64,000 bases of DNA from Verrucomicrobiota bacterium (lineage in GTDB: Bacteria > Verrucomicrobiota > Verrucomicrobiia > Opitutales > Opitutaceae). Made by a program: the position numbers and the translations under genes. Within the stretch, counting starts at the first letter, position 1, and each line of letters begins with the position of its first letter. The DNA lies in contig JACRQG010000004.1 in assembly GCA_016222805.1 (NCBI GenBank), forward strand, positions 62,001-126,000. The letters run 5' to 3'. A model generated the notes under the pieces. The model ran no database searches and was not told the origin of the DNA. It saw nothing but the letters and a program-made list of their open reading frames with translations. Positions 16,114 through 32,000 of the stretch are shown here, in pieces.

Positions 16114-16151
16114 GAACGGCGGAATGGATCAAATCAACTAAGTCTGCAAAA

Positions 16152-17246
16152 CTAGTGTCCTGAGCGATCAATCCGTGAACAAAGAGTCTCAACCCGTCCA
16201 AGGATGAGATCGGCGGAAGCGGTCCAGACAAAAGGCGTCGGATTGCGATTGTTGGTTTCGAGATACTGCCGGATCGCCTTTTCCAAGTCGGCTATGGAGT
16301 GGAAGGCGCTGCGACGCAGCCGCTGCTCGGTGATTCTGGCGAACCAGCGCTCCACTTGGTTGAGCCACGAACCGCTGGTCGGCGTAAAATGCAGATGATA
16401 ACGCGGCCGGCGCTTGAACCATGCGGCGACCTTCGGAGCCTTGTGCGTGCCGTAGTTGTCCAGCACCAGATGAATCTCGAGCGCCGCGGGCACGGCGTCC
16501 TCGATTTGTTGGAGGAACCGCAGGAACTCCTGGTGCCGATGTCGGGGATGACAGCGTCCGATGACCTTGCCGGTGGCGATGTCCAGCGCCGCGAAGAGCG
16601 AGGTAGTGCCGTGGCGGAAGTAATCGTGCGTGCGCCGTTCCACTTGGCCAGGGCGCAGCGGCAGGATGGGCTGGCTGCGATCCAGCGCCTGAATCTGGCT
16701 CTTCTCGTCGACACACAGGACAATCGCGCGGGTTTTCTCCGGCGGATTGAGGTAGAGCCCGACGATGTCCCGCACCTTCTCCACAAAGAACGGATCGGCC
16801 GAGAGCTTGAAGTTTTCCTGCAGATGCGGCTTCAGCCCAAACGCACGCCAGATGCGAACGATGGCGTTTTGCGTCAGGCCGCTCGCCTTCGCCATCGAGC
16901 GAGTGCTCCAGTGAGTCGCTCCCACCGGCTTCTTCTCCAGGGTGCGTGTGACGACCGCCTCGATTTTGGCGTCGGTGATCTTGCGCGGTTGCCCCGGCCG
17001 CGGCGCATCACCCAGCCCGGCGAGTCGCTGCGTCACGAATCGCTGCCGCCACTTGCCGACCGTCGCCAGCGTCACCTCGTAGCGTTCCGCCACCGCCGTG
17101 TTGCTCAGTCCGCTCGCGCAATCCAACACGATCCCGGCCTGCAGCGCCGTGCGTTGATCCGACTTCGGCCGCCGGGCCATCGTCGTGAGTTTCGCGGTTT
17201 CTTCCGCACTCAACACCAGTTTCGTCAGGGGTCTACCAAGGGCCAT
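16152..17246 (-). CDS. IS630 family transposase
   Basis: 364 residues from the ATG at 17246 (a GTG lies one codon earlier). The N-terminal half has a helix-turn-helix region ([20 protein letters not shown]) and a second HTH-like part. The C-terminal DDE domain has Asp180 (LCVDEKSQ), Asp263 (VLDNYGTHK) and Glu299 (WLNQVERWF), the D-x35-E spacing of IS630/Tc1-like enzymes. The frame is intact, so the enzyme may be active. The stop codon TAG is formed partly by flanking DNA just outside the terminal repeat, so the reading frame uses the TA target site to end. Confidence 0.95.
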
Positions 17247-17300
17247 CACGCAGAAGATCTGAGCTTCTTCTTTATTGCACGCATTAATCGCTCAGGACAC
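16155..17300. mobile_element. IS630-family insertion sequence
   Basis: One DDE transposase gene is bounded by inverted repeats. GTGTCCTGAGCGAT at 16155-16168 is matched exactly by its reverse complement at 17287-17300, and the similarity extends inward to 23 bp with 2 mismatches (16155-16177 and 17278-17300). The left end abuts TA, the dinucleotide duplicated by this family, but the right end abuts TT. The target duplication is therefore damaged or the two flanks were rearranged. The element sits next to the attachment end of the integrative element. Confidence 0.9.
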
Positions 17301-17327
17301 TTGCCGAAGAGCGCAAAACGCGCGGAA

Positions 17328-17353
17328 GTTTGCCAAAGTGATTTTGGCAAATC
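17328..17353. repeat. Inverted repeat TTTGCCAAA / TTTGGCAAA (left end, outer)
   Basis: TTTGCCAAA at 17329-17337 faces TTTGGCAAA at 17342-17350 with a 4-nt spacer; the right arm extends to TGGCAAATC at 17345-17353. It is the same motif as in the repeat just before the integrase gene and at the other element end. It is likely an integrase or excisionase binding site. Confidence 0.6.
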
Positions 17354-17453
17354 ATCCGAGGCTCGCTCGCCGCCGCGATAAAATAGGGGCATCCGAGGTA
17401 TTCCCCTCTCGAGAAACTGCCCCAAACCCACATGCAGGTTTTCGACCTCGGAA

Positions 17454-17493
17454 CCCGCTTCCGCGGTGGGTTCGAATCCCACCCTCTCCGCCA
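17454..17493 (+). pseudogene. tRNA-Ser 3' fragment (variable arm to CCA), probable attachment site
   Basis: A small variable-arm hairpin is followed by a perfect 5-bp T-stem (GTGGG / CCCAC) around loop TTCGAAT. Then come a 7-nt acceptor strand CCTCTCC, discriminator G and encoded CCA. The discriminator G and long variable arm point to serine. The matching 5' acceptor GGAGAGG and the D and anticodon arms are not upstream, so the gene is incomplete. Its place directly before the integrase gene fits a tRNA 3' attachment site. The missing 5' part may have been lost by rearrangement at the neighbouring IS630. Confidence 0.7.
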
Positions 17494-17535
17494 TTTAAGT
17501 ATCGGGCAGTTCGTTACTTAATTTTTCCTACTCCC

Positions 17536-17560
17536 GATTTGCCAGTTGACGTGGCAAATC
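17536..17560. repeat. Inverted repeat GATTTGCCA-N7-TGGCAAATC before the integrase
   Basis: Perfect 9-bp arms at 17536-17544 and 17552-17560 (10 bp if the flanking C/G pair is counted), centred on a 7-nt spacer. It ends 4 bp before the integrase ATG, so bound protein would also control integrase expression. The motif recurs at the distal end of the element. Confidence 0.7.
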
Positions 17561-17564
17561 GGCC

Positions 17565-18776
17565 ATGAAGCAGGCAGCAACGTTCGTCATTACTGAATTC
17601 ACGAATCCCTCCGGGGAGATCGTTCTTCGCGTTTCCGGTTGGCTCGATGGAAAGCGCGTTCGCAAAAACTTTCACACGCGCGCCGAGGCGCGCGCGGAAG
17701 TTGAGGGCCTCGAAGTCGACGCCACGCAGGCCGAGACCGGTTTGCGCCGCGCGGTCACGCGGCTCACCGAGGCGCAGCTGAAGGACGCCGAAGCCGCAGT
17801 CCTCCGACTCGAAGGCAAAGCGCACACGCTGGGATTTTGCGTGGATTTCACGCTGACGACCTACCGCGCGCCGGAGCGTGAGAAGGCGCTCGCCGATGGC
17901 GTGGCCGATTACCTCGCGGCAAAGAAGCGCGAGGCCGAGCGCGGCATCATTTCCCTCGTTCAGGTCGGCAGCATTAAGAAGGAGCTGGCGCTCCTCACCG
18001 CGGCGTTTCCGAAAGCGACGGTCGCGGCGCTCGCGACCGCGCAGCTTACGGCCTTCTGCGAGCGCGGAGACCCCTCGCTCAAGACCTTTAACAATCGCCG
18101 CGGCATCCTGAGCACGTTTTTCAAATACGCCTTCCAGCAGGACTGGATCGCCGCGAACCCCATCGAGAAAATGGCCTATCACCGCATCGCGCATCGCCGC
18201 GGGTCAGCGAAAACGCTGTCGGTTGAACAATGCCGCGAGCTGATGGAGTTCGTCGAGGCGCACGAGGGCGGCCGGCTCGTGCCGTTCTTCGCGCTCTGCC
18301 TGTTCGCCGGTATCCGCCCCTGCGTGCGCGGTGGCGAGATCATAAAGCTCAAGCCGTCCGATGTGCGGCTAGACACTGGCGTGATTCACGTTGAACCCGA
18401 GGTCTCGAAAGTGCGCATGAAGCGCCGCGTCACGATCCAGCCGAATCTCGCCGCCTGGCTCCGGGCTTACCCACTGGAGCAGTTCCCCATCGCACCGCCA
18501 AATCTCCAGACGCTTCGCGCCAAGGTGGCGAGGAAGATTCCCCTCACGAAGGACGTGATGCGGCACACGTTCATTTCGATGTTCGTCGGCAAGTTCCGGT
18601 CGATGGGCGAAGCGGCGCTGCAGGCCGGGAATTCGGAAACCATCATCCGCAAGCACTACCTCGACCTCATGACGCCGGAGGAAGCGGAGGCGTTCTTCGG
18701 TATCCTGCCTCGTGGCCGTGGCGAGATCATCGCCATGCCGGTGCCGGAGAAAAACGACACCCGTGTCGCAATCTGA
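17565..18776 (+). CDS. Tyrosine recombinase / integrase
   Basis: 403 residues. The N-terminal part has an AP2-like/arm-binding region (about 1-60), then a SAM-like core-binding domain (about 105-205). The catalytic domain has an Arg in AGIRP, a Lys in the beta-hairpin (SKVRMKRR), the RHTF box and the nucleophile Tyr365 in RKHYLDL. The usual His of the HxxR box reads Asp (DVMR), a variation seen in some integrases, so activity is plausible but not proven. It starts 72 bp from the tRNA-Ser CCA end and 4 bp after an inverted repeat. It would integrate and excise the surrounding element. Confidence 0.92.
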   Translation: MKQAATFVITEFTNPSGEIVLRVSGWLDGKRVRKNFHTRAEARAEVEGLEVDATQAETGLRRAVTRLTEAQLKDAEAAVLRLEGKAHTLGFCVDFTLTTYRAPEREKALADGVADYLAAKKREAERGIISLVQVGSIKKELALLTAAFPKATVAALATAQLTAFCERGDPSLKTFNNRRGILSTFFKYAFQQDWIAANPIEKMAYHRIAHRRGSAKTLSVEQCRELMEFVEAHEGGRLVPFFALCLFAGIRPCVRGGEIIKLKPSDVRLDTGVIHVEPEVSKVRMKRRVTIQPNLAAWLRAYPLEQFPIAPPNLQTLRAKVARKIPLTKDVMRHTFISMFVGKFRSMGEAALQAGNSETIIRKHYLDLMTPEEAEAFFGILPRGRGEIIAMPVPEKNDTRVAI

Positions 18777-18817
18777 GGCAGTCTCGCACCTCGCTGACTT
18801 GACCGGCAGCGAGGTGC

Positions 18818-19042
18818 GTGGAAACGCAACTAACACTCCTCACTGAAACTCGGCTGACGGACATTGTTGGCCTCCGCCAGAGCGGCGTCTTCCCGGACGG
18901 AAAGGCGCCTTCGATCCGCACGCTGCGGAAGTGGACCAAGCTTCGCCGCATTCCCTTCCACCGCGTCGGACACTTCGTTTACTTCGACCCGTCGGAGGTC
19001 GCGCTGCACATCCGCACGAGGCTCAAAGTGGCGCCGCGCTAG
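18818..19042 (+). CDS. Small HTH protein, excisionase-like
   Basis: 74 residues from a GTG start. The segment around APSIRTLRKWTKLRRIPFHRVGHFVYF has the winged-helix, MerR/Xis-like pattern: a short helix, RxxRxWxKxxxIP, then a beta-wing followed by YFDPSEV. It sits 41 bp after the integrase, the usual place for a recombination directionality factor. It may bind the GATTTGCCA repeats and bias recombination to excision, but this is inferred from size, fold pattern and position only. Confidence 0.6.
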   Translation: METQLTLLTETRLTDIVGLRQSGVFPDGKAPSIRTLRKWTKLRRIPFHRVGHFVYFDPSEVALHIRTRLKVAPR

Positions 19043-19193
19043 TCTCCCGCGCCGGCCCCTGCGAACGCCGCCTTTCGAGGCGGCGTTTTGTTTTTGGAGG
19101 CCAGCGCACGGCATCGGGAAAATACCGACGGCGGCGCGCGCTGCGCTCCGCCCCCAATTTTGGCGGCACCGGACGGCGTATGGTCGCGGCGCA
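19043..19193. other. Spacer within the element
   Basis: A short spacer between the HTH gene and the next small gene. It includes a GCCGCCTTTCGAGGCGGCGTTTTGTTTTTG-like stretch at about 19068-19097: arms CGCCTTTCGAGGCG form a compact hairpin followed by TTTTGTTTTT, which is a good Rho-independent terminator for the integrase/HTH transcript. Confidence 0.6.
19066..19098 (+). terminator. Rho-independent terminator after integrase-HTH genes
   Basis: A self-complementary G+C stem (CGCCGCC ... GGCGGCG) with loop TTTCGA is followed at once by a T-rich tract (TTTTGTTTTT). It lies downstream of the 74-residue HTH gene and would end that transcript. Confidence 0.7.
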
Positions 19194-19484
19194 ATGAAAA
19201 CGAACAATCCAAACCATCCCGATCCGTTCTTCGCCGAGTCGCCCGACGCTTGCACCGCCGCGCGGCTCATCGCCAATGCCGTCCTCGCTCGCCTCCTCAT
19301 TTGGCAGGCCGACGCACCGTCACTCGAAGACCGCGGCCTCCGAACCACGGTTGCCCTCTACTGCGTGCGCCCCGACTTGATCGCGGCGGCGACGCTCGAG
19401 GAGATCGGCGACCGCACCGGCCGGACCAAGCAATGGGTGCACGCCCTTGCCGACAGCTTCCGACTCACCACGGGGATTTCGTAA
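19194..19484 (+). CDS. Small mobile-element protein, sigma-region-4/HTH-like C-terminus
   Basis: 96 residues from the ATG at 19194. The C-terminal half (ATLEEIGDRTGRTKQWVHAL) reads like a sigma-70 region-4 or CII-type helix-turn-helix. The first half is helical with no recognisable motif. Its TAA overlaps the next ATG (TAATG), showing translational coupling with the DUF3102-like gene. A small DNA-binding regulator of the element is the best guess; no family was confidently recognised. Confidence 0.6.
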   Translation: MKTNNPNHPDPFFAESPDACTAARLIANAVLARLLIWQADAPSLEDRGLRTTVALYCVRPDLIAAATLEEIGDRTGRTKQWVHALADSFRLTTGIS

Positions 19485-20023
19485 TGAACCTGGCCCCCGC
19501 CCACGGCTCGGTGATCGAGCAGATTAATTGCCTGCACGCGGTCGCAGTCCGGATGGCGGGCGATTCGCGGAATGCCCTGCGAATGGCGCTTTCGGCCGCC
19601 TGGAAGGCGGGCCAGCTCCTATCCGCGGAAAAGAAACGGGTGAGGAAGCAAATGGGTCATGGTGCGTGGGGCGACTGGCTGGACGCCAACTTTGACGGCT
19701 CCGTCCGGACCGCCCAACGCTACATGTGCCTCGCGGCTTCGATCGCGGACACCCGTTTCCTCCGGGGACTTAGTCTCCGGCAAGCCTACTTCCGGCTCGG
19801 GATCGCGACCGAGCCGAAGTCGCGCCGAGACGCCGTGGCCGTCCCACCTCTGCCGGAACCGGTCCGGCTGGCGGGACGGCTCATCGAGGCGTTGCGATCC
19901 GAGCCGCCCCAGTGTCGCGACGACCTGCGGCCCTTGTTCGAGGAACTGCGGCGGTGGTTCGAACCCGCGAACAATTCCCGCGGAACGGTTTCGATATTGT
20001 CATGGCCAAGCCCGCCCCGGTGA
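19484..20023 (+). CDS. DUF3102-like mobile-element protein
   Basis: 179 residues. The central part (AWKAGQLLSAEKKRVRKQ ... GAWGDWLDANFDGSVRTAQRYM) matches the pattern of DUF3102/ParB-like phage and ICE proteins, which follow the theme of a helical entry, then HGxWxxWLxxNF and SxRTAQRYM. The function of that family is not established. The gene is coupled to its upstream neighbour and overlaps the next small gene by 22 bp, giving a compact phage-like arrangement. Confidence 0.65.
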   Translation: MNLAPAHGSVIEQINCLHAVAVRMAGDSRNALRMALSAAWKAGQLLSAEKKRVRKQMGHGAWGDWLDANFDGSVRTAQRYMCLAASIADTRFLRGLSLRQAYFRLGIATEPKSRRDAVAVPPLPEPVRLAGRLIEALRSEPPQCRDDLRPLFEELRRWFEPANNSRGTVSILSWPSPPR

Positions 20024-20208
20024 CTCCTGACGTCGCGCTCCTGCGGCGGCTGCTCACGGAGACCGACGAAAGCGCCAATCTCTGGGCTATCGGAGCGAAA
20101 TTACGGCAATTGGCGGAGGTTAAAATTGATTATTTTGGAGGGCTTCCCGCCAGTCACAGCGAGCCTGATCCTTGGCCAGGGACGGTCCTCGTCTGGCCAA
20201 AAAGTTAG
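20002..20208 (+). CDS. Short mobile-element ORF, probably truncated at the cargo junction
   Basis: 68 residues from the ATG at 20002. The first 38 or so residues (KPAPVTPDVALLRRLLTET ... LRQLAEVK) look like a genuine small helical protein. After about 20115 the base composition drops and the frame runs antisense through the 3' end of the nucleotidyltransferase gene. The gene was therefore probably cut by the arrival of the cargo module, and the present C-terminus is accidental. Confidence 0.4.
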   Translation: MAKPAPVTPDVALLRRLLTETDESANLWAIGAKLRQLAEVKIDYFGGLPASHSEPDPWPGTVLVWPKS

Positions 20209-21027
20209 CTGCTTGGGCAACGGCAATTCTTCTGGTTCGTCATTGCCTTGCTCGGCGTGACGTCGTGCGAATTCGATGGCGCGGCTAAAAACGCTGATCG
20301 GCCATTGCGCGGTCCCATAGTGTCTTACTTGAATATTCGTGAGTTCGTCCTCTGACATTTCCGAACCCACTCGCGCCAGGTAGCGTAAGAGGCGCGGACC
20401 TACTTTCCATTTGAGGTTCCCCGCCATGACGACTGATCGAACCACGCATAGGCCAGGAAAAGGATTCTCCTCTCGATTGATCTCGATTATTCTTTCAATT
20501 ACTCCGCGGAAAAATTGGTCGTCAGCAGAATAGATCGATCGGGGTTTTCCAGCGCGGGACAGCACGTCAACCGCGACTGCTTCCAAATTAAAGAAGGTAG
20601 AGCGTGGCAGGTCATCGAAATCTGGATGGCTTAAACCTGCTTCTTTGAGAGCATGCGTCTCCTGCAGAGGCCAAACGTCAAATTGCCAGCCGACGCGTTG
20701 TAATTGAAGACCTCCAAATCGAGTTCGACGGGCAACGTATTTCTCAAACTGCTGCTGAAGGTCAGGTAACCGTGTATCTCGAATTACGATATCAATGTCT
20801 CGGGGCCGCCCCAGCACGTTGTGAGTTAGGCGAGAAAGTAGCAGCGAACGCAGTGTGCCGCCGAAAAACACGGCGGGCCAATGTCCTTCTCGGATTTCAT
20901 CCACCGTGGTTGCGATAGCCTGCTTCCACCGGCGGTTGTTGTGACGACAGAAAAGCGAGACCTCGTGTCGCAGCAGCCGCTTCAGGCCGTCAATTTCCGA
21001 GGCTGAAGCCATTCTTGAGTTCACCAT
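20101..21027 (-). CDS. Pol-beta-type nucleotidyltransferase
   Basis: 308 residues from the ATG at 21027 (alternatives: TTG 21042, ATG 21012). The catalytic head reads FFGGTLRSLLL ... GRPRDIDIVI: a GG motif at 56-57 and the metal-binding Asp77-x-Asp79, as in CCA-adding/poly(A) polymerase heads and AbiEii-like toxins. A third acidic residue is probably Asp in QFDVWPL. The remaining 200 residues are helical and unassigned. It overlaps the dGTPase-like gene by 23-38 bp in the same direction, so the two are translationally coupled. It could modify an RNA, a protein or a nucleotide; the substrate is unknown. The gene is clearly A+T-richer than the host flanks. Confidence 0.75.
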   Translation of the reverse strand: MVNSRMASASEIDGLKRLLRHEVSLFCRHNNRRWKQAIATTVDEIREGHWPAVFFGGTLRSLLLSRLTHNVLGRPRDIDIVIRDTRLPDLQQQFEKYVARRTRFGGLQLQRVGWQFDVWPLQETHALKEAGLSHPDFDDLPRSTFFNLEAVAVDVLSRAGKPRSIYSADDQFFRGVIERIIEINREENPFPGLCVVRSVVMAGNLKWKVGPRLLRYLARVGSEMSEDELTNIQVRHYGTAQWPISVFSRAIEFARRHAEQGNDEPEELPLPKQLTFWPDEDRPWPRIRLAVTGGKPSKIINFNLRQLP

Positions 21028-22408
21028 GCAGTCGCTTCGCAAATGAGTCCGTCATGCCGCAAACATAGTCGGTCACCAGTTGCAGGCGATGGTAAGCCTC
21101 TGGCAAGTGTTTCAGATCGTGAACAGAATGGAGGAAGACGCTGCGGTAGTTGTTCGAGAGCAATGCTCCGATGCGCCCTGGGAAATTGTTAGTTTTCACC
21201 TTACCGTCTAGCGGTAACACCTTCGCTCCCTCCCAGAAGAGGTCCATCAAGTCGGTGATGATTGCGCGACCCATTAGCTCCAATTTCAAAGTAGGAGAAG
21301 TACAGTAGATCCGCGTTTTCCCGATGGTCTTCAATTTCTCGATGAAGCCCCGGTAGCTACTGTCTTTTACGAGCTCTCCGAGATACGTGCCGCCCATGAT
21401 TTCATCGTATTTGATCTCGAACGCTTTTTCTACGGCCTCGACCATTAGCCCGATCGCCGCTGTGCGGAAAGCCGAACCGTGAACATCGTCCGGGAGATTA
21501 TCTGGCGGAGCATCTCGGCCCGCTTTCAAAATTGCTTCCTTTCTTGAAAGCACCGCTTGCAAGCATTCGTTAGCGCGCGCCTCGTCAGCTTCATTTTTGC
21601 AGCTGGTTTTGCGCAGAATCTGTTCGAGTTGCGGCCACGTGAGAATCCCCTTCTTGATTCCGTCCTCGATATCCGCGACCGAATAGACGATGTCATCTGC
21701 GGCCTCGACCAAGAATGTGATGGGGTTGCGTGCGTCTCCCGTCCCTGTTTTCTCTCGGATCGATGCGACAAGACTTGCTTCGGAGGCAAAGTAGCCGGGC
21801 TTCGCCTTCGCGTGGTTCGTGTGTTCGCTGTTCGCTTCGTGGGAGGCCGCGGTGTATTTACATGCCGCGGAGAGCGTCCCAAACGTTAGGTTGAGGCCAT
21901 TGAAGTCCGCGAGCAATTGAAGCTTTCCGACCAAGCGCAGCGTCTGCGCGTTACCCTCGAAGGCCCTGAAGTCTTGCACGAGTTGCTTTTCCTTCAACAA
22001 GTCGGTCAGCCCTTTCTCGCCAAAGCGTTGCTCGAACCAGTATCTAATCGCATCTTCGCCAGCGTGTCCGAAAGGCGGATTCCCAAGATCGTGAATTAGG
22101 CCGCAAGTAGCGGCGATCGCTTCGATTTGCCGCGTCATGTTCGCCTGAATATGGCCCTTCTCCTCCAGACGCTTCCCAACGGAAATCGCGATACCTCGTG
22201 CGACAGATGACACCTCAAGCGAATGCGTGAGGCGGGTTCGTATGGCATCGCAGGGTTCCAGAGGGAAGACTTGGGCCTTGTCTTGGAGGCGCTTGACCGG
22301 CGTAGAGAAAATCGCGCGATCAAAGTCCCGCTCGAATTGGACGCGATGGTCGGGGCCAATGGTCGTCGTCCGTTTCCGTTCCGCACAAAGCAGTTGCTCC
22401 CACTTCAT
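20990..22408 (-). CDS. dGTPase-like HD-domain triphosphohydrolase
   Basis: 472 residues from the ATG at 22408, preceded by AAGG. It has the Dgt N-terminal pattern (FERDFDRAIFS ... VKRLQDKAQVFPL) and HD metal ligands His62 (RLTHSLEVS), His106-Asp107 (GLIHDLGNPPFGH) and Asp238/239 (EAADDIVYS). The Dgt-specific FEGNAQTLR is also present. The family hydrolyses dGTP (some members other dNTPs) to the nucleoside and tripolyphosphate. Dgt homologues act as anti-phage factors by depleting dNTPs. Its place in a mobile element, coupled to a nucleotidyltransferase and divergent from a LexA-like repressor and methyltransferase, favours a defence role over housekeeping. Confidence 0.88.
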   Translation of the reverse strand: MKWEQLLCAERKRTTTIGPDHRVQFERDFDRAIFSTPVKRLQDKAQVFPLEPCDAIRTRLTHSLEVSSVARGIAISVGKRLEEKGHIQANMTRQIEAIAATCGLIHDLGNPPFGHAGEDAIRYWFEQRFGEKGLTDLLKEKQLVQDFRAFEGNAQTLRLVGKLQLLADFNGLNLTFGTLSAACKYTAASHEANSEHTNHAKAKPGYFASEASLVASIREKTGTGDARNPITFLVEAADDIVYSVADIEDGIKKGILTWPQLEQILRKTSCKNEADEARANECLQAVLSRKEAILKAGRDAPPDNLPDDVHGSAFRTAAIGLMVEAVEKAFEIKYDEIMGGTYLGELVKDSSYRGFIEKLKTIGKTRIYCTSPTLKLELMGRAIITDLMDLFWEGAKVLPLDGKVKTNNFPGRIGALLSNNYRSVFLHSVHDLKHLPEAYHRLQLVTDYVCGMTDSFAKRLHGELKNGFSLGN

Positions 22409-22617
22409 CACCTTAGTTTTTCGCTAAACACGGCTCCGGACAACGTGAAACGTTCGTGGATGAAACGCATGTAACCTGTGGCGCTCCTCCTCCCCGGAAG
22501 GCGATTGGTTGGACTCAGGACGACAAAGAAGACGACAAATGTCTTCTTGTTGTCGCTTTTTAACAAACACGCCCGACATTGCTTGACAAGGACGACGAAT
22601 CGCCGACCCCTTGTGAG
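22409..22617. promoter_or_regulatory. Divergent control region of the two cargo operons
   Basis: This 209-bp A+T-rich segment separates the leftward dGTPase start from the rightward repressor ATG, so it must hold both promoters. It contains one inverted repeat and several copies of GACGACAAA (22519-22527, 22531-22539, near copy GACGACGAA 22591-22599, inverted TTGTCG 22550-22555). No confident -35/-10 pair was identified on either strand. Confidence 0.65.
22526..22548. promoter_or_regulatory. Candidate operator: AAGAAGAC-N7-GTCTTCTT
   Basis: Perfect 8-bp inverted arms at 22526-22533 and 22541-22548 around a 7-nt centre. It lies 70 bp before the repressor ATG and about 118 bp from the dGTPase start, a suitable place for control of both directions by the LexA/CI-like repressor encoded next door. 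It overlaps one GACGACAAA direct repeat. Binding is inferred. Confidence 0.55.
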
Positions 22618-23223
22618 ATGTTGCAGGTGGAACAACCACGTCAGCTTGCCATCATCCGAGAGCGACTGGGCCTCAACCAGTCGGAGATGGCGCGCAAACT
22701 CGGGATTTCGCGGCAGCACCTTTCTAAGCTGGAGAATTCGGCCGACTCGTTGTCGCCGAAGCTTTCCCGGAAAGTTGCGGATCTTTGTCGAGCTCACGGA
22801 TTGTCAGTCGTTGGCCCTCTAAGCGGAATCAGGGCAATCCCGGTGCGATCCTGGGCTCAAGCGGGCATTGGGCGTGATTTTGAGGAACTCCCTTTCGATT
22901 GGCAGCGGACCATTCCGACAGATTGCCCGGATGACCAAGCTTTCGCGGTAGAGGTCGAGGGAGACTCAATGGAGCCGAAGTTTCTCCAAGGCGACATTGC
23001 TGTGATTATGCCGTCACATCAGCCCAAAAATGGGAGTCTGGTGGTGGCGCGGCTGGAGCGAGAAGGGATCGTTTTCAAAGTGTTCACTGCACGCCAAGAT
23101 GGATCGGTGCGCCAATGCAGCTTTGCTAGTTATCATCATGCTTACCGACCGATCGAAGTCTCAGAAAATTCAGTCATCTGGAATTTTCCGGTTTACCAAG
23201 TGGTAAGGCAGGTGTGGCGCTAA
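22618..23223 (+). CDS. LexA/CI-like repressor: XRE HTH plus S24 autoprotease
   Basis: 201 residues from the ATG at 22618; a TTG 13 codons earlier is also in frame but adds no conserved sequence. Residues 8-62 are an XRE helix-turn-helix (GLNQSEMARKLGISRQHLSKLE). Then come a cleavage site Ala82-Gly83 (WAQAGIG) and an S24 fold with Ser117 (VEGDSMEP) and Lys154 (IVFKVF). The spacings 35 and 37 equal those of LexA (Ala84, Ser119, Lys156), so RecA-stimulated self-cleavage is likely. It is the first gene of an operon with the methyltransferase (1-bp gap) and probably represses itself and the divergent dGTPase operon until DNA damage. Confidence 0.88.
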   Translation: MLQVEQPRQLAIIRERLGLNQSEMARKLGISRQHLSKLENSADSLSPKLSRKVADLCRAHGLSVVGPLSGIRAIPVRSWAQAGIGRDFEELPFDWQRTIPTDCPDDQAFAVEVEGDSMEPKFLQGDIAVIMPSHQPKNGSLVVARLEREGIVFKVFTARQDGSVRQCSFASYHHAYRPIEVSENSVIWNFPVYQVVRQVWR

Positions 23224-23224
23224 A

Positions 23225-26200
23225 ATGAACTTAGCTCTCGCACACGAGAAACTGGGCTGGCCCGAGCCGGACACCGTGCTCAAACCGCGCGGATCGGGGC
23301 CAGCAATGTTCGCGGATAAAGCCCGCACGAAAATTGGTTTGTCACTGAAACGTGCATACGCCCAAGAGCGATTTAGAATTGGTATTCTACACGCTGACTC
23401 AAACACCACGGATTCTCAGCCCCCCCTAGCAGTTGTTTGCGAATTTTCTACCGCTCCGTCTGCCAGCACGCTAACGGAAACCCATCGGCTTGCTTGGAAT
23501 TTTTGCCATGCGCCATTGCTGGTGACGTTGGAGCCTGGGATGATTCGTATCTGGAATTGCGGGCACGAGCCGCCGCGGCAATCGAACGATCTTTTCGTAA
23601 ACGAAGATGCGGTTGTTTTTTCTCGTTCGGACAGCCAGCTGGATGACGAAGCGGTGCGGCTTTTGCACTGGGTGAGTTTGGCGACAGGTCAATTCATTCG
23701 GGAGCGGATTCCCGCCGCCAAGATAAAGCCCGAGCAACGCGCTGACCGGTCATTGCTCGAAAATTTGCGGCGCGTGCGTAGCAAATTACGAGAACTCAAG
23801 ATGCCAGTGGATATTTGCCACGATCTCCTGGCTCGGGTTATCTTTGTGCAGTTTCTCTGGGATCGTCGTGATGCGAACGGCGATGCTGCGCTGTGTCCCG
23901 ATCAGCTCGCTCGATGGCACGAGCGAAACATCCTGAAACACAAGCACGACAGCATTGGCTCGGTGCTCCGGCATCGCGATGATGCCTACGCGCTTTTTCG
24001 GGAGCTGGATAGGATCTTCAATGGTGACCTCTTCCCGGGCAAGGAGTCCGCCTCGGCGGCCGTGCGCACTGCCGCCTGGCGCCGCGAGCAACGGTTCGTT
24101 CAAAAAGAACACCTCGATTGGTTGGCGCGCTTAGTTGAGGGTAAAGACGATTCGAAGACCGGCCAGTTCTGGTTATGGCGGATGTATTCTTTTGACACCA
24201 TTCCGCTCGAATTCATTAGCAGCATCTACGAGGAGTTTGTAACACGCGACGAGGTTGGTGATGGCGCAGCTCGAGATGATGGTGTTGTCTATACACCTGG
24301 CAGGGTTGCAGATTATGTATTGGATCAAGTCTTGCCGTGGCATGGAATCGCATGGCGAATGCGCATTTTTGATCCCGCTTGCGGATCGGGCATTTTCCTC
24401 GTCAAAGCGTTTCAACGATTAGTGCATCGGTGGCGGCGTGCGAATCGCGGCCGTCCCGTAGTCGCCTCGATTCTTCGACAAATACTCGAGCGGAATCTGC
24501 TTGGAGTGGACAAGAATGCACACGCTATTCATGTTGCATCGTTTAGTCTTTATCTGGCGATGCTCGATGAGTTGGAACCGAAGGATTATCTCGAGCGTGT
24601 TCGCTTTCCTTCGCTACGCAATAGTCGACTAATCTCGAGCGACTTCTTTACAGAGGACTGGCGAAAGGATTTTCGCCCGCGAAACCTGAAATTCGATATC
24701 GTTATCGGCAACGCCCCTTGGGGTGACAAAACTGCAACACCGGTTTCGATTTCTTGGGCGGAAAAGGAAGAGTGGTCCATTGCTGATCACAACATTGGTC
24801 CACTTTTTCTTCCTTCTGCCGTGCAATTTTTGGCTAGAAACGGGCGCGTGGCGATGTTGCAGCCTGCGATGACGCTACTGTTCAATCGCGCGGAAACGGC
24901 GAATGGATTCAGGCGGCGTTTCTTCTCTGAATTCAACGTCCACAAAGTTGTAAACTTTGCTCCCGTGAGATTTATTCTCTTTGGGAAGCGTGCGATCTCA
25001 CCGGCTTGCCTTATCGTGTTTGATGGAGGCTCACCAGCTTCTGACGAGCGGGATGAGCCTCGTATTGAATACGCGACGGTCAAACCTAGGCAGACTTCGG
25101 AAGACAACTATGCTCTGACGATCGAACCTTTCGACATCCATCTGATCTCTCCCAAGGAAGCAGCCAATGACCCGCTAGTGTGGACAACATTGAGCTGGGG
25201 TGGGCGACGGGATCTTTCCTTGCTTCGCTCACTTTCACACTTTCCCTCGATTGCTAAGCTTAAGGCCGACAAAAAGGTCAAGACGCGCGAGGGGGTTAAT
25301 CGCGGGGACCGCAAGAAAGTGCAGAAGCAGATTGTTGGATGGAGAATGCTGGAAGGCACGGAATTTCCTCCGAATTCGTTTCCGCGCCTTTCGAGTAGGA
25401 AATTACCGGTCAACGACGATCCGCTCACTGATGGTCGAGCCTCCACCGATTTTTCTGCCTTCGAGCGTCCGCAACTGCTCATTAAAGGTGGTTGGAAGAC
25501 TGACGAGAGTCGTTTCCAAGCATCGCTGGTCGACTATGAAAAGTCGGACGAAATTGGAGTTTTGTGCAGCCAGAGTTACATAACCGTTAGTGATCCGAAT
25601 GCCGTTGCAGGTCAGTCCTCGATTCTCGATGCGGCTACAATCGTCCTGAATAGCAAGCTTGCGGTTTATCATTTGCTGCTAACAAGCAGCCGCTTTGCCT
25701 CCTATCGGCCAGAACCGCTAGTGGCTGACTTTCTAAATGTTCCCCTGCCACCAATAAAAGGGGACGCGTTAGATTATGTCCGTAAGCCGGCTGATTGTGA
25801 TGTTCTCGTTCGCAATGGTTTCGAGTTAGCTAGGGAAGACTGGGGTCTAGTCGAAGACCTGTTCGACTACACATTGCCCGATTTCAAGGGCGACGCTACA
25901 TCTCCAGGGCGGCGTCGGACTACCAGAAAGGACGAACCCCAACTTTCGAAGTATTTCGAGTTCTTTTCTGCGGTCCTTTTAGAAGCGTTTGGTCCAGACA
26001 AACGAATCACCGCAACTATTTACCAAGAGCTACCTGGAGAGGAGTTACTAGGACTGCGACTAGTTGCAATTGAACTTGGAGCGACCGGAACGAGGGAGGA
26101 TATTTCAGTTCGTCCTCTCAATACACCGCGACTGTTGGCGGAAATCGCGGAAGTTCAGTCGCGAGAATCGGAGCGGGCAAAGAATAGCTGGTTGTCCGGT

Positions 26201-26365
26201 GCAATCGTTCGATTGTATGGTTCAAGCGGCACGGGTCGCAATAAGACACCTACGATTTTCCTGCTCAAACCAGACCAGCATCGTTATTGGACTCGTAGCA
26301 TGGCGATGCGGGACGCGGATGAAGTCGCGGCGGATTTTCTGACCGGAATCGTCGAGGGGTCCTAG
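23225..26365 (+). CDS. N6-adenine DNA methyltransferase (type IIG/BREX-PglX-like)
   Basis: 1046 residues. The SAM-binding motif I is DPACGSGIFL (383-392) and the catalytic motif IV is NAPW (496-499), the NPPY/W variant of gamma-class adenine methyltransferases of type I, IIG and BREX systems. The region after about 620 would be target recognition (GWKTDESR, then IVLNSKLAVYHLLLTSSRFASYRPEPLVADFLNVPLPP, a pattern common in Eco57I-type TRDs). The N-terminal 300 residues are unassigned; no clear PD-(D/E)XK nuclease motif was seen there. It starts 1 bp after the repressor stop and is followed 6 bp later by a putative nuclease, giving a three-gene operon. Base composition is A+T-richer than the host. 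Confidence 0.87.
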   Translation: MNLALAHEKLGWPEPDTVLKPRGSGPAMFADKARTKIGLSLKRAYAQERFRIGILHADSNTTDSQPPLAVVCEFSTAPSASTLTETHRLAWNFCHAPLLVTLEPGMIRIWNCGHEPPRQSNDLFVNEDAVVFSRSDSQLDDEAVRLLHWVSLATGQFIRERIPAAKIKPEQRADRSLLENLRRVRSKLRELKMPVDICHDLLARVIFVQFLWDRRDANGDAALCPDQLARWHERNILKHKHDSIGSVLRHRDDAYALFRELDRIFNGDLFPGKESASAAVRTAAWRREQRFVQKEHLDWLARLVEGKDDSKTGQFWLWRMYSFDTIPLEFISSIYEEFVTRDEVGDGAARDDGVVYTPGRVADYVLDQVLPWHGIAWRMRIFDPACGSGIFLVKAFQRLVHRWRRANRGRPVVASILRQILERNLLGVDKNAHAIHVASFSLYLAMLDELEPKDYLERVRFPSLRNSRLISSDFFTEDWRKDFRPRNLKFDIVIGNAPWGDKTATPVSISWAEKEEWSIADHNIGPLFLPSAVQFLARNGRVAMLQPAMTLLFNRAETANGFRRRFFSEFNVHKVVNFAPVRFILFGKRAISPACLIVFDGGSPASDERDEPRIEYATVKPRQTSEDNYALTIEPFDIHLISPKEAANDPLVWTTLSWGGRRDLSLLRSLSHFPSIAKLKADKKVKTREGVNRGDRKKVQKQIVGWRMLEGTEFPPNSFPRLSSRKLPVNDDPLTDGRASTDFSAFERPQLLIKGGWKTDESRFQASLVDYEKSDEIGVLCSQSYITVSDPNAVAGQSSILDAATIVLNSKLAVYHLLLTSSRFASYRPEPLVADFLNVPLPPIKGDALDYVRKPADCDVLVRNGFELAREDWGLVEDLFDYTLPDFKGDATSPGRRRTTRKDEPQLSKYFEFFSAVLLEAFGPDKRITATIYQELPGEELLGLRLVAIELGATGTREDISVRPLNTPRLLAEIAEVQSRESERAKNSWLSGAIVRLYGSSGTGRNKTPTIFLLKPDQHRYWTRSMAMRDADEVAADFLTGIVEGS

Positions 26366-26371
26366 TCGGAC

Positions 26372-27049
26372 ATGGCTAAATCACCTATCAGGCCACGTGT
26401 AGCGTCACCAGTAGTGAGCGTCCTTCCATCCGACTTTACCGACCTGGTTTCGACCTGGAGGCCCGATGCTCTTGCGCGATTGATGAACAACGTGTGGAAG
26501 GGTTATGACGATCTTTCTCGAAATCCGTCGCCTGACATTGACTGGAACAATGAATGGAGCCTCAACGCCCACCTCGGCCGTAGGATACGCCGCCTTTGGC
26601 CGCGAGCCTCGCCCTTTGAATTTGAGTCATCATGGCCGGTCATGGACAAGCGGGTTACGCCGAGAAGTCAGCCTCCCACTCCGGATTTCTCGATCCTCTC
26701 CCGCGACAACCGGATTTCAGCCAGCTTCGACTTTGACGCGAAACTCATTCGGCAAATCAACGACACCAAAGCCTATGCCGATAAGATCGCTGAGAGCTTC
26801 CTCACAGGTCGATACTCCGGCGGTTCCCGCGGAGGAGGAATGATTGCCTACGTTCTCCCTTCGGATGCGAAGGATTTTCAAACCAACATCGCCTCGGTGT
26901 TGAAATGCGAGTTGATAGCATGGCCGCCGATGGCGCCCCGATTACACTTCGTGAGCAATCATGTCCGAATGCGAAGGCAACCTCCCGCAAGCGCAAACTT
27001 CGCGCTCCATCACCTTCTGATGGGTCTACGGCAGGCTTCCCCCGTGTAG
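26372..27049 (+). CDS. Putative PD-(D/E)XK restriction endonuclease partner
   Basis: 225 residues, starting 6 bp after the methyltransferase. Pro104-Asp105 (PTPDFSIL), about 17 residues, then Asp122-Ala-Lys124 (FDFDAKLI) gives the PD-x(n)-(D/E)xK layout of restriction nucleases. An upstream acidic helix (ESSWPVMDKR) and the following ADKIAESFLTGRYSG ... GGMIAYVL resemble small nuclease-like proteins next to adenine methyltransferases, which share the theme of F.xGRYS followed by GxMIGYV. Function is inferred from this pattern and the operon position. It could instead be a specificity or control subunit. Confidence 0.6.
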   Translation: MAKSPIRPRVASPVVSVLPSDFTDLVSTWRPDALARLMNNVWKGYDDLSRNPSPDIDWNNEWSLNAHLGRRIRRLWPRASPFEFESSWPVMDKRVTPRSQPPTPDFSILSRDNRISASFDFDAKLIRQINDTKAYADKIAESFLTGRYSGGSRGGGMIAYVLPSDAKDFQTNIASVLKCELIAWPPMAPRLHFVSNHVRMRRQPPASANFALHHLLMGLRQASPV

Positions 27050-27202
27050 AAAAAAAACGAAACTAGCGGGCGCCAAAAGCCGACGAAGGCTACGAGTTTT
27101 CTAATTTGCCTCGGATTTGCCAAACTACGCCGGATCTATTCCCAAAAACGTAAGAAGTGGGTGCGATACCCACACTCAAATATTTGCCAGAGATCGGAAA
27201 AC
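27050..27202. other. Right end of the integrative element
   Basis: 153 bp without a gene. It carries AATTTGCC (27104-27111), GATTTGCCA (27114-27122) and TATTTGCCA (27181-27189), the same motif as at the left end, and a small perfect hairpin GTGGG-TGCGATA-CCCAC (27157-27173) that resembles the tRNA T-arm at the left end. This is the probable attR region. Confidence 0.55.
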
Positions 27203-27585
27203 TCACAGGGCCGCCTTCTTCAGGAGGCGGAGCGTGAGTTCAAAATCCCTCGTTCGCAGCCGCGCACGCTCGGTGCCGTGGATCTTCCGCTCGTCCCATT
27301 CGCGCTCCATCCCATACAGGTGCCCGATCAAACGCAGCATGAACGCTGCGGCCACCGGCGTCGTCTCGAGGGCGTCGTTAAACTTCCGCCTCGCGTGAGC
27401 AAAACACGCCACCCGGATTACCTGGGGATTGTTGGCGGCGTAACGGGCGTAGCCGTCGTAGCCATCCGACTGGAGCACGCCCTTGAAGCCGTCCAACAGG
27501 CTCGTGATCTCGCCGTGCTGGCGCGTCAGCCGCCAATCGAAGACGACATCATCATCCGGGCGACTGATCACCCAGAGGTAACCTT
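27203..27585 (-). pseudogene. IS66-family transposase fragment (TnpC)
   Basis: About 127 codons with the IS66 core: GYLWV..SRPDDDVVFDWRLTRQHGE, then LLDGFKGVLQSDGYDGY and ACFAHARRKFNDALE. A full TnpC is about 500 residues. Here the N-terminal two thirds and the extreme C-terminus are missing; upstream of about 27586 the frame loses similarity and the left end stops 14 bp from an element-end repeat. It is a relic, perhaps the sequence into which the integrative element inserted or one trimmed by it. Confidence 0.85.
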
Positions 27586-27660
27586 GGAAGAGGAAGAAGA
27601 AAGACGCGGGTGGGAACGCCTATGGTGACGGCCTCGTTACCACTGTGCGATCCCTGCAGA

Positions 27661-28083
27661 TCAACCGTGGCTGTTTCCCGGAAGGGCGGGGTTCTTGCGC
27701 TCCAGGAGATCCCAGCGGTTGCCATACAAGTCCTCGAAGACCACGACGGTGCCGTAGGTCTCCTGGCGGGGTTCCTCGCAGAACCGCACGCCCCGCTCGG
27801 CATAGCGGCGGTAGTCGCGCCAGAAGTCATCCGTGTGGAGGAAGAGAAAGACCCGGTTGCCGGCCTGACGGCCGATCCTCGCGGCATCCTCCTCTGTGCG
27901 CGGCTTCGCCAGCAGCAGGCCGCAGTCGACAGCGCCGGGCGGTGCGACCACCACCCATCGTTTCCCACCCGGGCCTACGGTGATGTCCTCGACGAGGCGA
28001 AAACCCAGGACCTGCGTGAAGTACGCAATGGCCTCGTCGTAGTCGCGAACGAGAAGGGAGACCTGGCCAATCGCCTGTTTCAT
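27661..28083 (-). CDS. VOC family (glyoxalase/bleomycin-resistance fold) protein
   Basis: 140 residues. It has the repeated beta-alpha-beta-beta-beta layout of the vicinal oxygen chelate fold: start MKQAIGQVSLLVRDYDEAIAYF.xVLGF, middle RVFLFLHTDDFWRDYRRYAERGVRF, end TVVVFEDLYGNRWDLLE with the distal metal-site Glu. Members bind metals and include glyoxalase I, dioxygenases and antibiotic-binding proteins. The function of this short single-domain version is not evident. It stands alone next to a PEP-CTERM gene, both read leftward. Confidence 0.85.
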   Translation of the reverse strand: MKQAIGQVSLLVRDYDEAIAYFTQVLGFRLVEDITVGPGGKRWVVVAPPGAVDCGLLLAKPRTEEDAARIGRQAGNRVFLFLHTDDFWRDYRRYAERGVRFCEEPRQETYGTVVVFEDLYGNRWDLLERKNPALPGNSHG

Positions 28084-28152
28084 GGCTTCGCCGGGGAATG
28101 AACGCTAGGTCCCGTTGGTGGCGGCGGTGAGCCGCGATGGGACAACTTTGGC

Positions 28153-28827
28153 TTAACTGCGGGACGCCCCGGGACGGCGGAGCCGCCGGCGCCACGTGGC
28201 GAAGCCCAATCCCAGGCCACCCGCGATCGCCGCGTAGGCGCCTGGCTCCGGCACCGCAGAGATCGTCATGCTGCCGACGGAGGCGAAGTTTCCGGCGGCA
28301 TCCACCGGATAGAAATCCGTGATGGTGAAGTTGAGGATCCCGCTCCCGCTGGTTTTCGACATGACCTCGTCGTAGAAACTGGAGGAGGTGCCGGCGCCGG
28401 TGAGGAAGGCGCTTCCCGTCCCGATGGCGTGAGTATCGAGGTTGTTGTCCACCTCCGTGCGCAGAAAGACGGGAGTGCCGGTGGCCCAGAGGGCGCCGTT
28501 GTAGCGGACCTCGAACGTGGCCGAACCGGACGCAGTATACCGCTCGAACCCGCTCGTGGCTCCACCCGGGCTCTGATAGGTATTCAGATCGAGGTTGGTG
28601 AAGTTGAACGTGAGCAGCGAAAGGTCGACCGAGGCGAGGGAGGTGAAACCGCTCTGGGTCGTTCCCGTGAAGGCAGCGGTTTGCACCGTCCCCCACATCG
28701 TGGAGCCGGCGACCCACGAGATGGCTGTCAAGTTGGTGGCGTGTGCGGTGCCGGTATAGTTGAGAGTCTGCGCGGCTCCGGCACTCGTGAACACAGCCAA
28801 GGGTAAAAGAAGACAGCACTTCTTCAT
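28153..28827 (-). CDS. PEP-CTERM sorting-domain protein
   Basis: 224 residues from the ATG at 28827, giving a signal peptide MKKCCLLLPLAVFTSAGAA; in-frame ATGs at 28836 and 28839 are possible starts. The middle is a Ser/Thr/Gly-rich beta-sandwich-like secreted region without recognised domains. The end is the classic sorting signal: VPEP (AVPEPGAYAA), a hydrophobic helix (IAGGLGLGFATW) and an Arg cluster. Exosortase would cleave there and attach the protein at the cell surface, usually with an exopolysaccharide system. No exosortase gene is in the window. It diverges from the large lyase gene. Confidence 0.88.
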   Translation of the reverse strand: MKKCCLLLPLAVFTSAGAAQTLNYTGTAHATNLTAISWVAGSTMWGTVQTAAFTGTTQSGFTSLASVDLSLLTFNFTNLDLNTYQSPGGATSGFERYTASGSATFEVRYNGALWATGTPVFLRTEVDNNLDTHAIGTGSAFLTGAGTSSSFYDEVMSKTSGSGILNFTITDFYPVDAAGNFASVGSMTISAVPEPGAYAAIAGGLGLGFATWRRRLRRPGASRS

Positions 28828-29021
28828 GCTGGTCATCATCGGATCCAAATCGCCCGGGTGCAGGAAAATCGGTGAAACAGGCCTTCCCCTGACGGCGGGG
28901 TGGGCGCGAAGGTCCGACCGTTCCAAGCCGAGCATGTTGAGGCGCCGCGGCGCCGCGATGGCGGCATTTTCCTCCGGTTTCGTGTAATTTCTCCACACCG
29001 TTGGTGCAATTGATGGGCAGT

Positions 29022-32000
29022 ATGATTCCCACTGCCCCTCGTTTCCTTCGTCGTGTCTGCCTTTGGCTCCTGCCGGCTGTGCCGGTCCTGGCGACCGTGC
29101 TCAACGCCGCGCCGGCCACCGATCATCCTCGCGTGCTCGTGCGCGCGTCCGAGCTTCCGGCCCTGCGCGCGCGCATGACCAACTCCAACGACGTCTGGGT
29201 CCATTTCCGCGATCACGTCGTCGTGAAGGCGCTCGCCGACTGGAAACGCACGCGCAACGCCGCCGGCGACATTGTCGAGCCGGACGGCACGATCATCCCC
29301 GCCAACGTGGCGACGGGCAACGGTTGGGTGGCGGCCCCCGAAGATGACATCGGCGCGCACACGGGCGGTCAGCCCCTGATTTCGGAGCAGTACGCGATGC
29401 TCTTTGCGTTCATGGCGATGCTGACCAAGGACGATCCGGCGCAGGCGGCGCAGCACGCTGAGTATGTGGCGGCCGCGAAAGAGTGCCTGTTCAAGGTCAT
29501 CGATCCGGCCTCGCTTGGTCACCCGGCGCCCGACGTCAACGGCAAGTACCCGCCGTTCCGCCATCCGGGTTTCGCATTGCAGGACCGGAGTTTTGCCCAG
29601 GAGGCCTTCGGGCTGACGGTCGACTGGATCTACGACTCTTTCACGCCCCAGGAACTGGCGAAGATTCGCAAGACCTTCCTGCTGTGGACGGCCGACACCT
29701 GGAAGAAGCCGTACTACAGTCCCATCAATCCGAACAACCTGATCAACGATCCCGCGATCCTCGGTCTCAACTCCCCGGAACAGGCGGTGAAGCGCAGCAA
29801 CCTCCGCATCGCGCTCAACAACCACTACGCAAATCACCTCCGGCAGATGGCGCTCTACGCGCTGGCGTTCGATCCCAAGGACGACGTACCGAGTGCATTT
29901 GTGGAGGTGGCTGACGCCGCCCCGGCCGGGGCGTTGACTGGATTCACGCCCGGCCCGGGAGGTCCGAACGACTGGGTCTACCAGAACACCGGTGTGCTGC
30001 GCGGCGTCACCGGCTCCTGGCTCTATCTGACCGACTATGCGCTCCGCCACGACGGCGCGGGCGGACTTTCCCTCGAAGGCACGCAGTACGCCTCCAACGG
30101 TCTCGGGCCGCTGGCGTTGACGATGGCCGCCCTCCACAGCGCGGGCCAGGACGACGCCGCGCGTTGGGGGCCCCAGGTGGCGCTGGCGCAGCATCCGTTC
30201 TGGACGCGCGTGCTGCCGGGCTACCTGGCGCAGCTCACGCCGACGCCGCGCGTGAATTCAGATCCCAACTACACCTACCTCGGCACGCACTTTCAGCCGC
30301 CGCTCACGGGCGACCTGGAGAATTACGCCATGATCAACGACCAGAACATCAAGTTCCTGGCGCCGCTTGCGCTGCACGACTGGCGGGTGAATGGCACGAC
30401 CGGCCCCGTCGTCCAGGCCGTGCGCTACATCCAGCGGCATCTGGCGCCGGGCGGGGCCTCGCGCCTCGAGGATCGCATCCGCTCCACGCGCTCCGAGCAC
30501 CGCTACCGGGACGCGATTTACTACTTCCTGTTGTTCGATCCCTTTGCTCCAGCGCCCGCGGATCCCCGGCCGGCGTTTCAGGAGAAGACGTTCTGGGCTC
30601 CGTATGATCCCGCCGGCAAGATGGGCATGGTGCTGGCGCGCACGGGCGCCGCGCCGCAGGACACGTATTTCCAATGGCAGATCGGCTGGCGGCGCATCGA
30701 CCACCAGCAGGGCGACAACCTGGGTTTCGGTCTGTGGAAGAACGGCCTCTGGCTGACCAAGATCATGACCGGTTACGGGTTGCTGCAGGGTTGCTCCGAC
30801 TACCGCAACGCGCCCGCGCTCCAAAACAGCCCGGCTGCGCCGGACCAATACGGCGGCCAGGCCAACACGCAGCTCCAGATCAACCACGGCAGCCAGCTGG
30901 CGTACGAATCGATGGGCGATCCACAGATCCTCGCGCGCTCATTTGCCAACGGCTTCATCCACCTCGATGCCGATGCGACCAACCTCTACAACTCGTACAA
31001 CCGGCCGGAAGTACGCTCGGTGGAACATGCCAGTCGCAGCCTCGTCTGGCTGAAGCCCGATACCATCGTCGTCTACGACCGGGCGAAGTCCCAGGCCGGG
31101 TTGTGGAAACGGTTCTACCTGAACCTGCCGTCCGTCCCGGTGATTGCCGGCAACGTCGCCACCGCCACGGCATCCGAAGGGGCAGTGGTAAAGGCCCGGC
31201 TGTTTGTTTCCTCCCTGCTGCCCGCGGGTGCGACGGTGGCCAGCACCGACATTTCGTCGGGACAGCCCTCGCCGGGCGAGGACATGAAGGCCCGCCTCGT
31301 GGTCGAAGCCCCGGGTGCTCCGGCGGAGTCGCGTTTCCTTCACGTCGTGCAGGGCGCGGATCCGGCGATGGCGACAGCGGAGACCACGCAACTGATCGCG
31401 AGCCTCTCAGGTGCAGCCTACGACGGCGCGGTGGTCGGGGTGCGGGCCATCCTCTTCAAGCGCGAAGCGACGGTGGCCGTGACCACCCTGACCTACGAAG
31501 TACCGGCGGTTGTGACGCAGCACTTCATCACCGGCCTGGCTCCGTTTTCTCCCTACACGGTGACGCTGGGTGCCGGCGCCAACGGCAACACGCTGGTTAC
31601 GCTCAACACCGGAGGCGTGTCTCCGATCTGCTCCGACGGCGGCGGCGTGCTGGTGGTGGGCGGCGCTGAACTGCCCCGACTCGAAATCAAGGCCTCGGTG
31701 TCCTCCCTGCTCGAGAGTGCCGGCACGCCGATCGCCTTTACTGTCGCCCGCAGTGGCGACGTGAGCGCGCCGCTGACCGTGGGGATCGCCCTCGACCCCA
31801 AGACCAGCCAAGCGACGGCGGCCGACATCTCTTCCCTGCCGGCGGTGATCACGATTCCGGCCGGAGCGGCAGCGGCATCCTTCACCCTCACGCCGGTGGC
31901 CGATGGCCTGAACGAGGGCCCGGAGGATCTCGTCGTGGCGCTGCAGCCGGCGCCGGGCGTTTACGTCAGCGAGGCCGGCCGCACTGCCACCGTGACCCTC

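Follow-up and report, generated by a model that had tools for sequence, protein, structure and literature searches.

We analyzed a 64,000-nucleotide stretch of a Verrucomicrobiota genome (hereafter the window), in which the gene of a predicted repressor stands directly ahead of genes for a DNA methyltransferase and a predicted restriction nuclease. As a marker of the host phylum, TIGR02599 gave a weak partial match. The features considered here, in window coordinates, are the following:

17565-18776, plus strand: integrase (phrog_1, 2.7e-20).
20101-21042, minus strand: 313-aa protein, for which family matches were sought; its 5' end and the 3' end of the dGTPase gene overlap.
20990-22411, minus strand: divergent dGTP triphosphohydrolase (dGTPase) gene (TIGR01353, 3.1e-92).
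22517-22554, plus strand: candidate operator with direct repeats AGGACGACAAA and AAGACGACAAA and an overlapping inverted repeat AAGAAGAC..GTCTTCTT; weak statistical support.
22589-22599, plus strand: AGGACGACGAA, the half-site of this candidate operator in a third copy, from a repeat search.
22618-23223, plus strand: repressor of 201 aa with a Cro/CI-type helix-turn-helix (HTH) and an S24 peptidase domain (Pfam, AF2 model).
22861-22866, plus strand: codons of A82-G83, the predicted self-cleavage site, aligned with the lambda CI Ala-Gly (direct reading).
22966-22968, plus strand: codon of S117, the predicted nucleophile (direct reading, alignments).
23077-23079, plus strand: codon of K154, the predicted general base (direct reading, alignments).
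23225-26365, plus strand: N6-adenine DNA methyltransferase, type IIG/Eco57I-like, 1046 aa (Pfam, PADLOC).
26372-27049, plus strand: predicted PD-(D/E)XK restriction nuclease, 225 aa (conserved residues, AF2 model).

The repressor ORF opens with an ATG at 22618; a start at the alternative in-frame TTG, 22579, would lengthen the protein by 13 residues and leave the spacing of the catalytic residues unaltered. A single base separates the repressor stop codon (23221-23223) from the methyltransferase ATG at 23225, and the nuclease ATG at 26372 lies 6 bases past the methyltransferase gene. Judged by this layout, the repressor is the first gene of a tight predicted operon of three genes: repressor, methyltransferase and nuclease.

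Pfam detected HTH_3 (1.5e-10) and Peptidase_S24 (PF00717, 1.2e-16, above the gathering score) in the repressor. Its best match among PDB sequences is lambda CI (3bdn, 1.5e-5), with QAG, GNSM and FKKL of CI opposite QAG, GDSM and FKVF of the repressor. The AF2 model (pLDDT 88.2, pTM 0.65) is nearest to lambda CI and LexA in a Foldseek search, whose 34 matches at or below 0.001 also include UmuD' and the RecA-bound entries 8trg, 8gmu and 8s7g. Confidence inside the model is lowest for the block of residues 81-90 (58), which would fit a mobile cleavage loop. The LexA DNA-binding domain (PF01726) was absent from the repressor in the Pfam scan, and the NCBIfam lexA model (TIGR00498) gave 22.1 bits versus a cut-off of 110.95. 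By domain content and equivalog score, the protein is not a LexA orthologue.

The original prediction, made from the DNA sequence, had placed A82-G83, S117 and K154 at distances of 35 and 37 residues, equal to those in LexA. Direct reading confirmed both the residues (S117 lies within GDSMEP, residues 115-120) and the distances; for E. coli LexA we take the positions to be A84, S119 and K156. The HTH that the prediction combined with this site is likewise present, alongside a complete cleavage site and Ser/Lys dyad. The weight given to the exact LexA spacing did not survive an alignment of the operon-linked repressors described below with 36 S24 homologues outside restriction-modification (R-M) operons, taken from the fetched loci. 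The 35/37 spacing also occurs in L002, L193, L194 and L195, and L004 keeps it with Cys in place of Ser and Arg in place of Lys. We rejected the spacing as a diagnostic sign because L004 has 35/37 with neither catalytic residue.

The residues themselves proved more informative. Among the 36 unlinked homologues, the full set is present in 20, which by eye are mostly LexA- or UmuD-like, and 16 lack the Gly, Ser or Lys. Arg replaces Lys in L003, L004, L005, L047 and L050; of these, L003 and L047 retain Ala-Gly, and L050 is degenerate in the alignment. At the cleavage site, nine unlinked rows have AA, and three have AK or AM. By comparison, Ala-Gly, Ser and Lys are intact in 9/9 operon-linked repressors (Fisher P = 0.011 against 20/36, an optimistic value because the S24 rows compared are related). 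From these alignments the spacing appears to be a family trait; it is less usual, and more telling, for a CI-type protein to have all the residues intact.

The methyltransferase matched Eco57I (1.4e-15) and N6_Mtase (1.5e-12) in Pfam and REase_MTase_IIG (5.5e-45) in PADLOC. A profile built from 12 of its relatives matched solved N6 methyltransferases including BseCI, BsaXI, MmeI and BrxX. Among the 12 aligned sequences, the window protein and L044 deviate in motif IV, with NAPW; the remaining 10 have NPPW or NPPF. The methyltransferase shares its N6-adenine core with Eco57I, MmeI and BREX PglX; on sequence score it falls far short of the BREX PglX model cut-offs (BREX_2_MTaseX, 53.3 bits versus 400).

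In 83 of the 98 relatives' loci examined for this, the next gene after the methyltransferase is an ORF of 150-420 aa. In an alignment of 84 rows of this family, window included, E61 is conserved in 84, D105 in 83, K124 in 84 and H214 in 83; position 122 is E in 82 and D in two, and the window protein has D122. These residues correspond to the PD-(D/E)XK pattern and mark the protein as a predicted nuclease. Its AF2 model (pLDDT 88.4) gave weak fold matches, none reaching 0.001, with DdmDE first, followed by the BspD6I small subunit, Can2, SwaI, PaqCI and BstYI; nucleases and restriction enzymes account for several of them. The window nuclease had no match in Pfam or PADLOC and the family none among PDB sequences; one of 43 members weakly matched PDDEXK_9 in Pfam and one of 38 gave a weak match in PADLOC. 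Unlike in Eco57I and MmeI, the nuclease is a separate 225-aa protein outside Pfam.

To place the repressor in a wider context, we collected loci with relatives of the methyltransferase. The window's own phylum contributed 12 other genomes among 288 and, in a second sample, 18 loci, the window's among them, from 17 of 387 genomes. A genome-contig search with the single methyltransferase sequence returned no relative, and its alignment-based repeat gave at least 577, of which the best 80 were included; others came from viral contigs (15/15 confirmed) and plasmids (6/43 records). The 118 relatives' loci include 107 with at least 600 bp of upstream sequence.

Of the 118 loci, 9 have an S24 gene immediately upstream and in the same orientation, and 109 are without one. 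The nine make eight distinct cases, since L151 and L152 show identical ORFs and were counted once. With the window, there are nine distinct S24-linked loci (window, L151, L070, L051, L058, L059, L193, L194 and L195). Elsewhere in the 118 loci we found 2 S24 genes per 1,000,053 bp, a background from which we calculate about 0.15 expected in the upstream slots; the search profile had nine seeds including the window, L051 and L059 repressors, a small bias. The own-phylum sample has an S24 gene upstream in 7 of 18 loci; of the others, at least L053 and L192 have too little upstream sequence, and L044 has about 600 bp. Two of the linked repressors are CI-type (window and L151) and seven are LexA-like; in six of these seven the LexA DNA-binding domain scores above its Pfam cut-off, whereas L070 has an S24 match only.

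In a methyltransferase tree of 111 sequences (8 of 119 were left out as short, duplicate or weak), the operons with an S24 gene fall on six separate branches: the window; L151; L070; L051; L058 with L059; and L193 with L194 and L195. Supports around L070, L051 and the window are low, and the number of recruitment events is therefore approximate. The distribution points to a recurring design, in which the methyltransferase-nuclease pair appears to have acquired an S24 repressor, of CI-type or LexA-like kind, on several occasions. Control of R-M genes by DNA damage, as originally predicted, is supported better by these comparative data than by residue spacing; the interpretation was right in direction, its argument incomplete.

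In other relatives the same slot holds a protein of about 98 aa, one of 158 aa, an HTH_11 protein, or nothing. The ~98-aa protein (YEEFxxELGKAGLSVR... by eye) recurs upstream of the methyltransferase in L064, L065, L083, L085, L088, L089, L090 and L105; the L090 copy had no Pfam match, and this is perhaps a new controller family. A protein of about 160 aa, MerR-like by eye, occurs there in L066, L067, L084, L146 and L155, and its L066 copy had no Pfam match. Two cyanobacterial loci have LexA-like genes on the opposite strand, about 2 kb from the methyltransferase (L073, 3395-4000, minus; L147, 3134-3739, minus).

We consider it moderately probable that a CI-like self-cleaving repressor is both first gene and dedicated switch of the R-M operon, as a recurring design. 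The main alternative resembles the C proteins, which are likewise HTH regulators beside R-M genes: the repressor would be an autorepressor of HTH type, setting the timing of methyltransferase and nuclease once the operon has entered a new cell, with the S24 domain serving dimerisation only and damage irrelevant. Such a role would suit the small proteins, HTH-like by eye, that hold the slot in L064, L065, L083, L085, L088-L090, L105 and L053, and C.BclI is among the weaker HTH matches of the repressor model (Foldseek). However, the cleavage site is lost in 16/36 unlinked S24 homologues and in 0/9 operon-linked ones, and LexA-like proteins fill the slot in seven loci, which makes this alternative unlikely. 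C proteins are also small and HTH-only, whereas the window regulator adds an S24 domain; the available text of PMC12707154 does not mention a peptidase for them. The same text describes C proteins as widespread in type II systems, so that the earlier statement that most restriction systems are expressed constitutively was too strong.

The segment carrying the operon was probably acquired, because its GC content (53-56% in the operon and the divergent neighbours) is lower than that across the window (65%) and because neither the methyltransferase nor the repressor has a match in G010, a genome of the same genus. The segment has a DDE_3 transposase on its left (16152-17249, minus), presumably IS630-like, and an IS66 transposase fragment on its right (27203-27571, minus). 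The integrase is followed by an ORF (to 20023, plus) whose DUF3102 match is weak and below threshold; the arrangement is reminiscent of integrative elements. A search for att-like direct repeats over 16000-29200 gave one 24-mer pair (26999 and 27299, 79% alike), away from the island ends, and this candidate was rejected.

Could the protein instead be the master repressor of an integrated element or prophage remnant, with the R-M genes merely downstream? In a PHROG comparison of six window proteins, the nearest family of the repressor is the repressor family phrog_4 (1.1e-21). Repressor relatives occur in 50 phage records (top row 27% identity), with no plasmid relative at 1e-12, and an integrase gene is present. 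We regard this reading as very unlikely, as the methyltransferase gene is one base away, a dGTPase pair stands between repressor and integrase, and the pairing with LexA-like proteins recurs at other loci. The earlier label of mobile-element repressor is not supported for the same reason, the integrase being about 4 kb off, past the divergent dGTPase gene. As for the proposed control of cargo operons, the methyltransferase-nuclease operon alone is tied to the repressor. The divergent dGTPase gene may share the repressor control region, and the pair (20101-22411, minus) could be a second defence module on it. Searches of Pfam, PADLOC, NCBIfam and PHROG at 0.001 gave no match for the 313-aa protein, nor did those of plasmids and viral contigs; by eye it has a nucleotidyltransferase-like GG..DIDIV stretch.

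We also searched the promoters of the linked repressors for operators. The E. coli LexA box is ACTGTA-N6-TACAGT, and we scored it over -100 to +20, having chosen it after palindromes had been noticed. G187b reached 11/12 (0/2000 shuffles), G091 10/12 (2/2000), G168 10/12 (6/2000), G187a 10/12 (20/2000) and G205 9/12 (101/2000); G162, L070, L151 and the window stayed at 7/12, no better than shuffles. An E. coli-type box thus stands at the promoters of five of the seven LexA-like genes, and G162 and L070 are without one. The best palindromes were equalled in 0 of 300 shuffles for G187a and G091, 8 for G168, 9 for L151, 16 for G205, 30 for G162, 50 for the window, 82 for G187b and 95 for L070. 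The L070 palindrome includes GAACGAACGTTC, which has the form of the Bacillus-type box.

For host genes we used TGTTC-N4-GAACA, which we take to be the Verrucomicrobia LexA motif. A perfect copy is found at the host lexA of G187, G091, G000 and G010 (0/500 mononucleotide shuffles each) and none at that of G162, G168, G205 and G158. The recA genes of G000 and G187 also have it; starts were poorly placed for several of the host promoters scanned, and of the recA scans these two positive ones were used. At the seven LexA-like promoters and the window the motif scored 6 to 8 of 10 with no perfect copy. Since the host lexA carries the perfect TGTTC-N4-GAACA and the linked promoters the E. coli-type box, the two lexA genes in G187 and G091 differ in their box. 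Genome G187 has two such operons.

The window promoter has neither the E. coli-type nor the host-type box, and its control region (22412-22617) had no match to a sigma-70 promoter. This region contains three near copies of AGGACGACAAA and the inverted repeat. Three copies of the 11-mer arose in 2/200 shuffles, and the other four settings gave 10, 49, 68 and 70 of 200; the operator is a suggestion because the repeat array is clear at one of five settings. We rejected a host SOS box near the operon, since its sole near match, found at 22138 with one mismatch when the window was scanned, does not rise above chance level; nor does the GACGACAAA pattern across the whole window (14 found versus 12.2 expected). 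On the IMG/VR contig L151, three near copies of TTTATCGACGTTTTTT, two direct and one inverted, are present where the gene for the CI-type repressor starts (3163-3240); the 16-mer arose in 1/100 shuffles and shorter words in 12 and 24 of 100.

The host of the window encodes both RecA and a LexA of its own, and SOS-type boxes stand at these genes. That the repressor is released or cleaved by another signal (an antirepressor, a protease or redox) and not by RecA filaments is quite improbable: although IrvR, a LexA-like protein, is said to be an exception to RecA dependence (in the available text of PMC7101444), the Ala-Gly, Ser and Lys set is complete, RecA-bound LexA and CI structures are among the fold matches, and the host has a RecA with an SOS-type box.

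We return to the self-cleaving, dedicated repressor, for which the most likely mechanism is autorepression of the entire operon, lifted by RecA-stimulated cleavage. In an undamaged cell, the repressor would bind its own promoter and keep the whole operon low. RecA-ssDNA filaments would form once DNA is damaged, a phage attacks or under-methylated host DNA is cut. They would stimulate cleavage of A82-G83 by S117/K154, and loss of the repressor would free both methyltransferase and nuclease at the same time. Phage defence, renewed methylation of repaired DNA and persistence of the element itself are possible benefits. The sequence shows the layout of the operon, its domains, the intact residues, the recurrence and the LexA-type boxes at five of the seven LexA-like genes; we infer restriction activity, induction, RecA dependence and DNA binding. 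Points that count against this account are the 109 of 118 relatives' loci with no S24 gene adjacent, the two LexA-like promoters and the window promoter that have no E. coli-type box, the weak operator of the window, and the departures of its methyltransferase (NAPW) and nuclease (D122) from the common residues. On the comparative evidence, the operon is probably a damage-inducible, self-contained R-M operon, and the own repressors found here and in some relatives suggest that DNA damage switches these defences on.

Each component has known counterparts. Lambda-type CI (XRE-S24, e.g., 3bdn) has the domain order, Ala-Gly site, Ser/Lys dyad and fold of the window repressor; it belongs to a lysogeny region, whereas the window protein is, by position, the first gene of an R-M operon. 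LexA shares the S24 fold and catalytic set, and LexA-like proteins occupy the slot of seven related operons, but the window repressor is without a LexA DNA-binding domain match. BrxR and CapW (WYL) are, by the available accounts, likewise transcription factors dedicated to a defence operon; their protein families differ. CapH belongs to another family, and its HTH is just a weak fold match of the window repressor. The symE gene of E. coli lies among restriction genes. SymE is an SOS-induced, LexA-repressed toxin according to the available text of PMC1891008. It is under host LexA and is not an R-M enzyme, whereas the window operon has its own repressor. Restriction alleviation is linked to damage. 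It reduces type I nuclease activity (available text of PMC4231737). Alleviation lowers the nuclease, whereas the window operon would raise both enzymes together.

The literature covered by our search (titles and abstract starts, few subscription papers) contained no R-M operon with its own LexA/CI-type repressor. R-M control is described through C proteins, promoter methylation and antisense RNA in the available text of PMC12707154, and in a term search of it LexA and S24 do not occur. An R-M operon with a dedicated regulator is a known design, and the self-cleaving class of regulator would be the new part. According to the available text of PMC8565304, lexA duplications often go with motif divergence, and the SOS response of Bacteroidetes is run by a non-canonical repressor. 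Tentatively, as a possibility we judge just short of even, there may be a class of self-contained damage-inducible R-M operons, with their own CI/LexA-like repressor and an operator that differs from the SOS box of the host; damage, the nuclease's own included, would raise modification and restriction together, and a foreign lexA and its boxes would be carried into new hosts.

Two questions thereby become testable, namely whether restriction is raised by its own damage and whether mobile defence operons import diverged lexA copies. If the class exists, mobile operons could be among the causes of the turnover of LexA binding motifs, which is puzzling, and restriction would be joined to RecA-sensed damage via a switch apart from the host SOS regulon.
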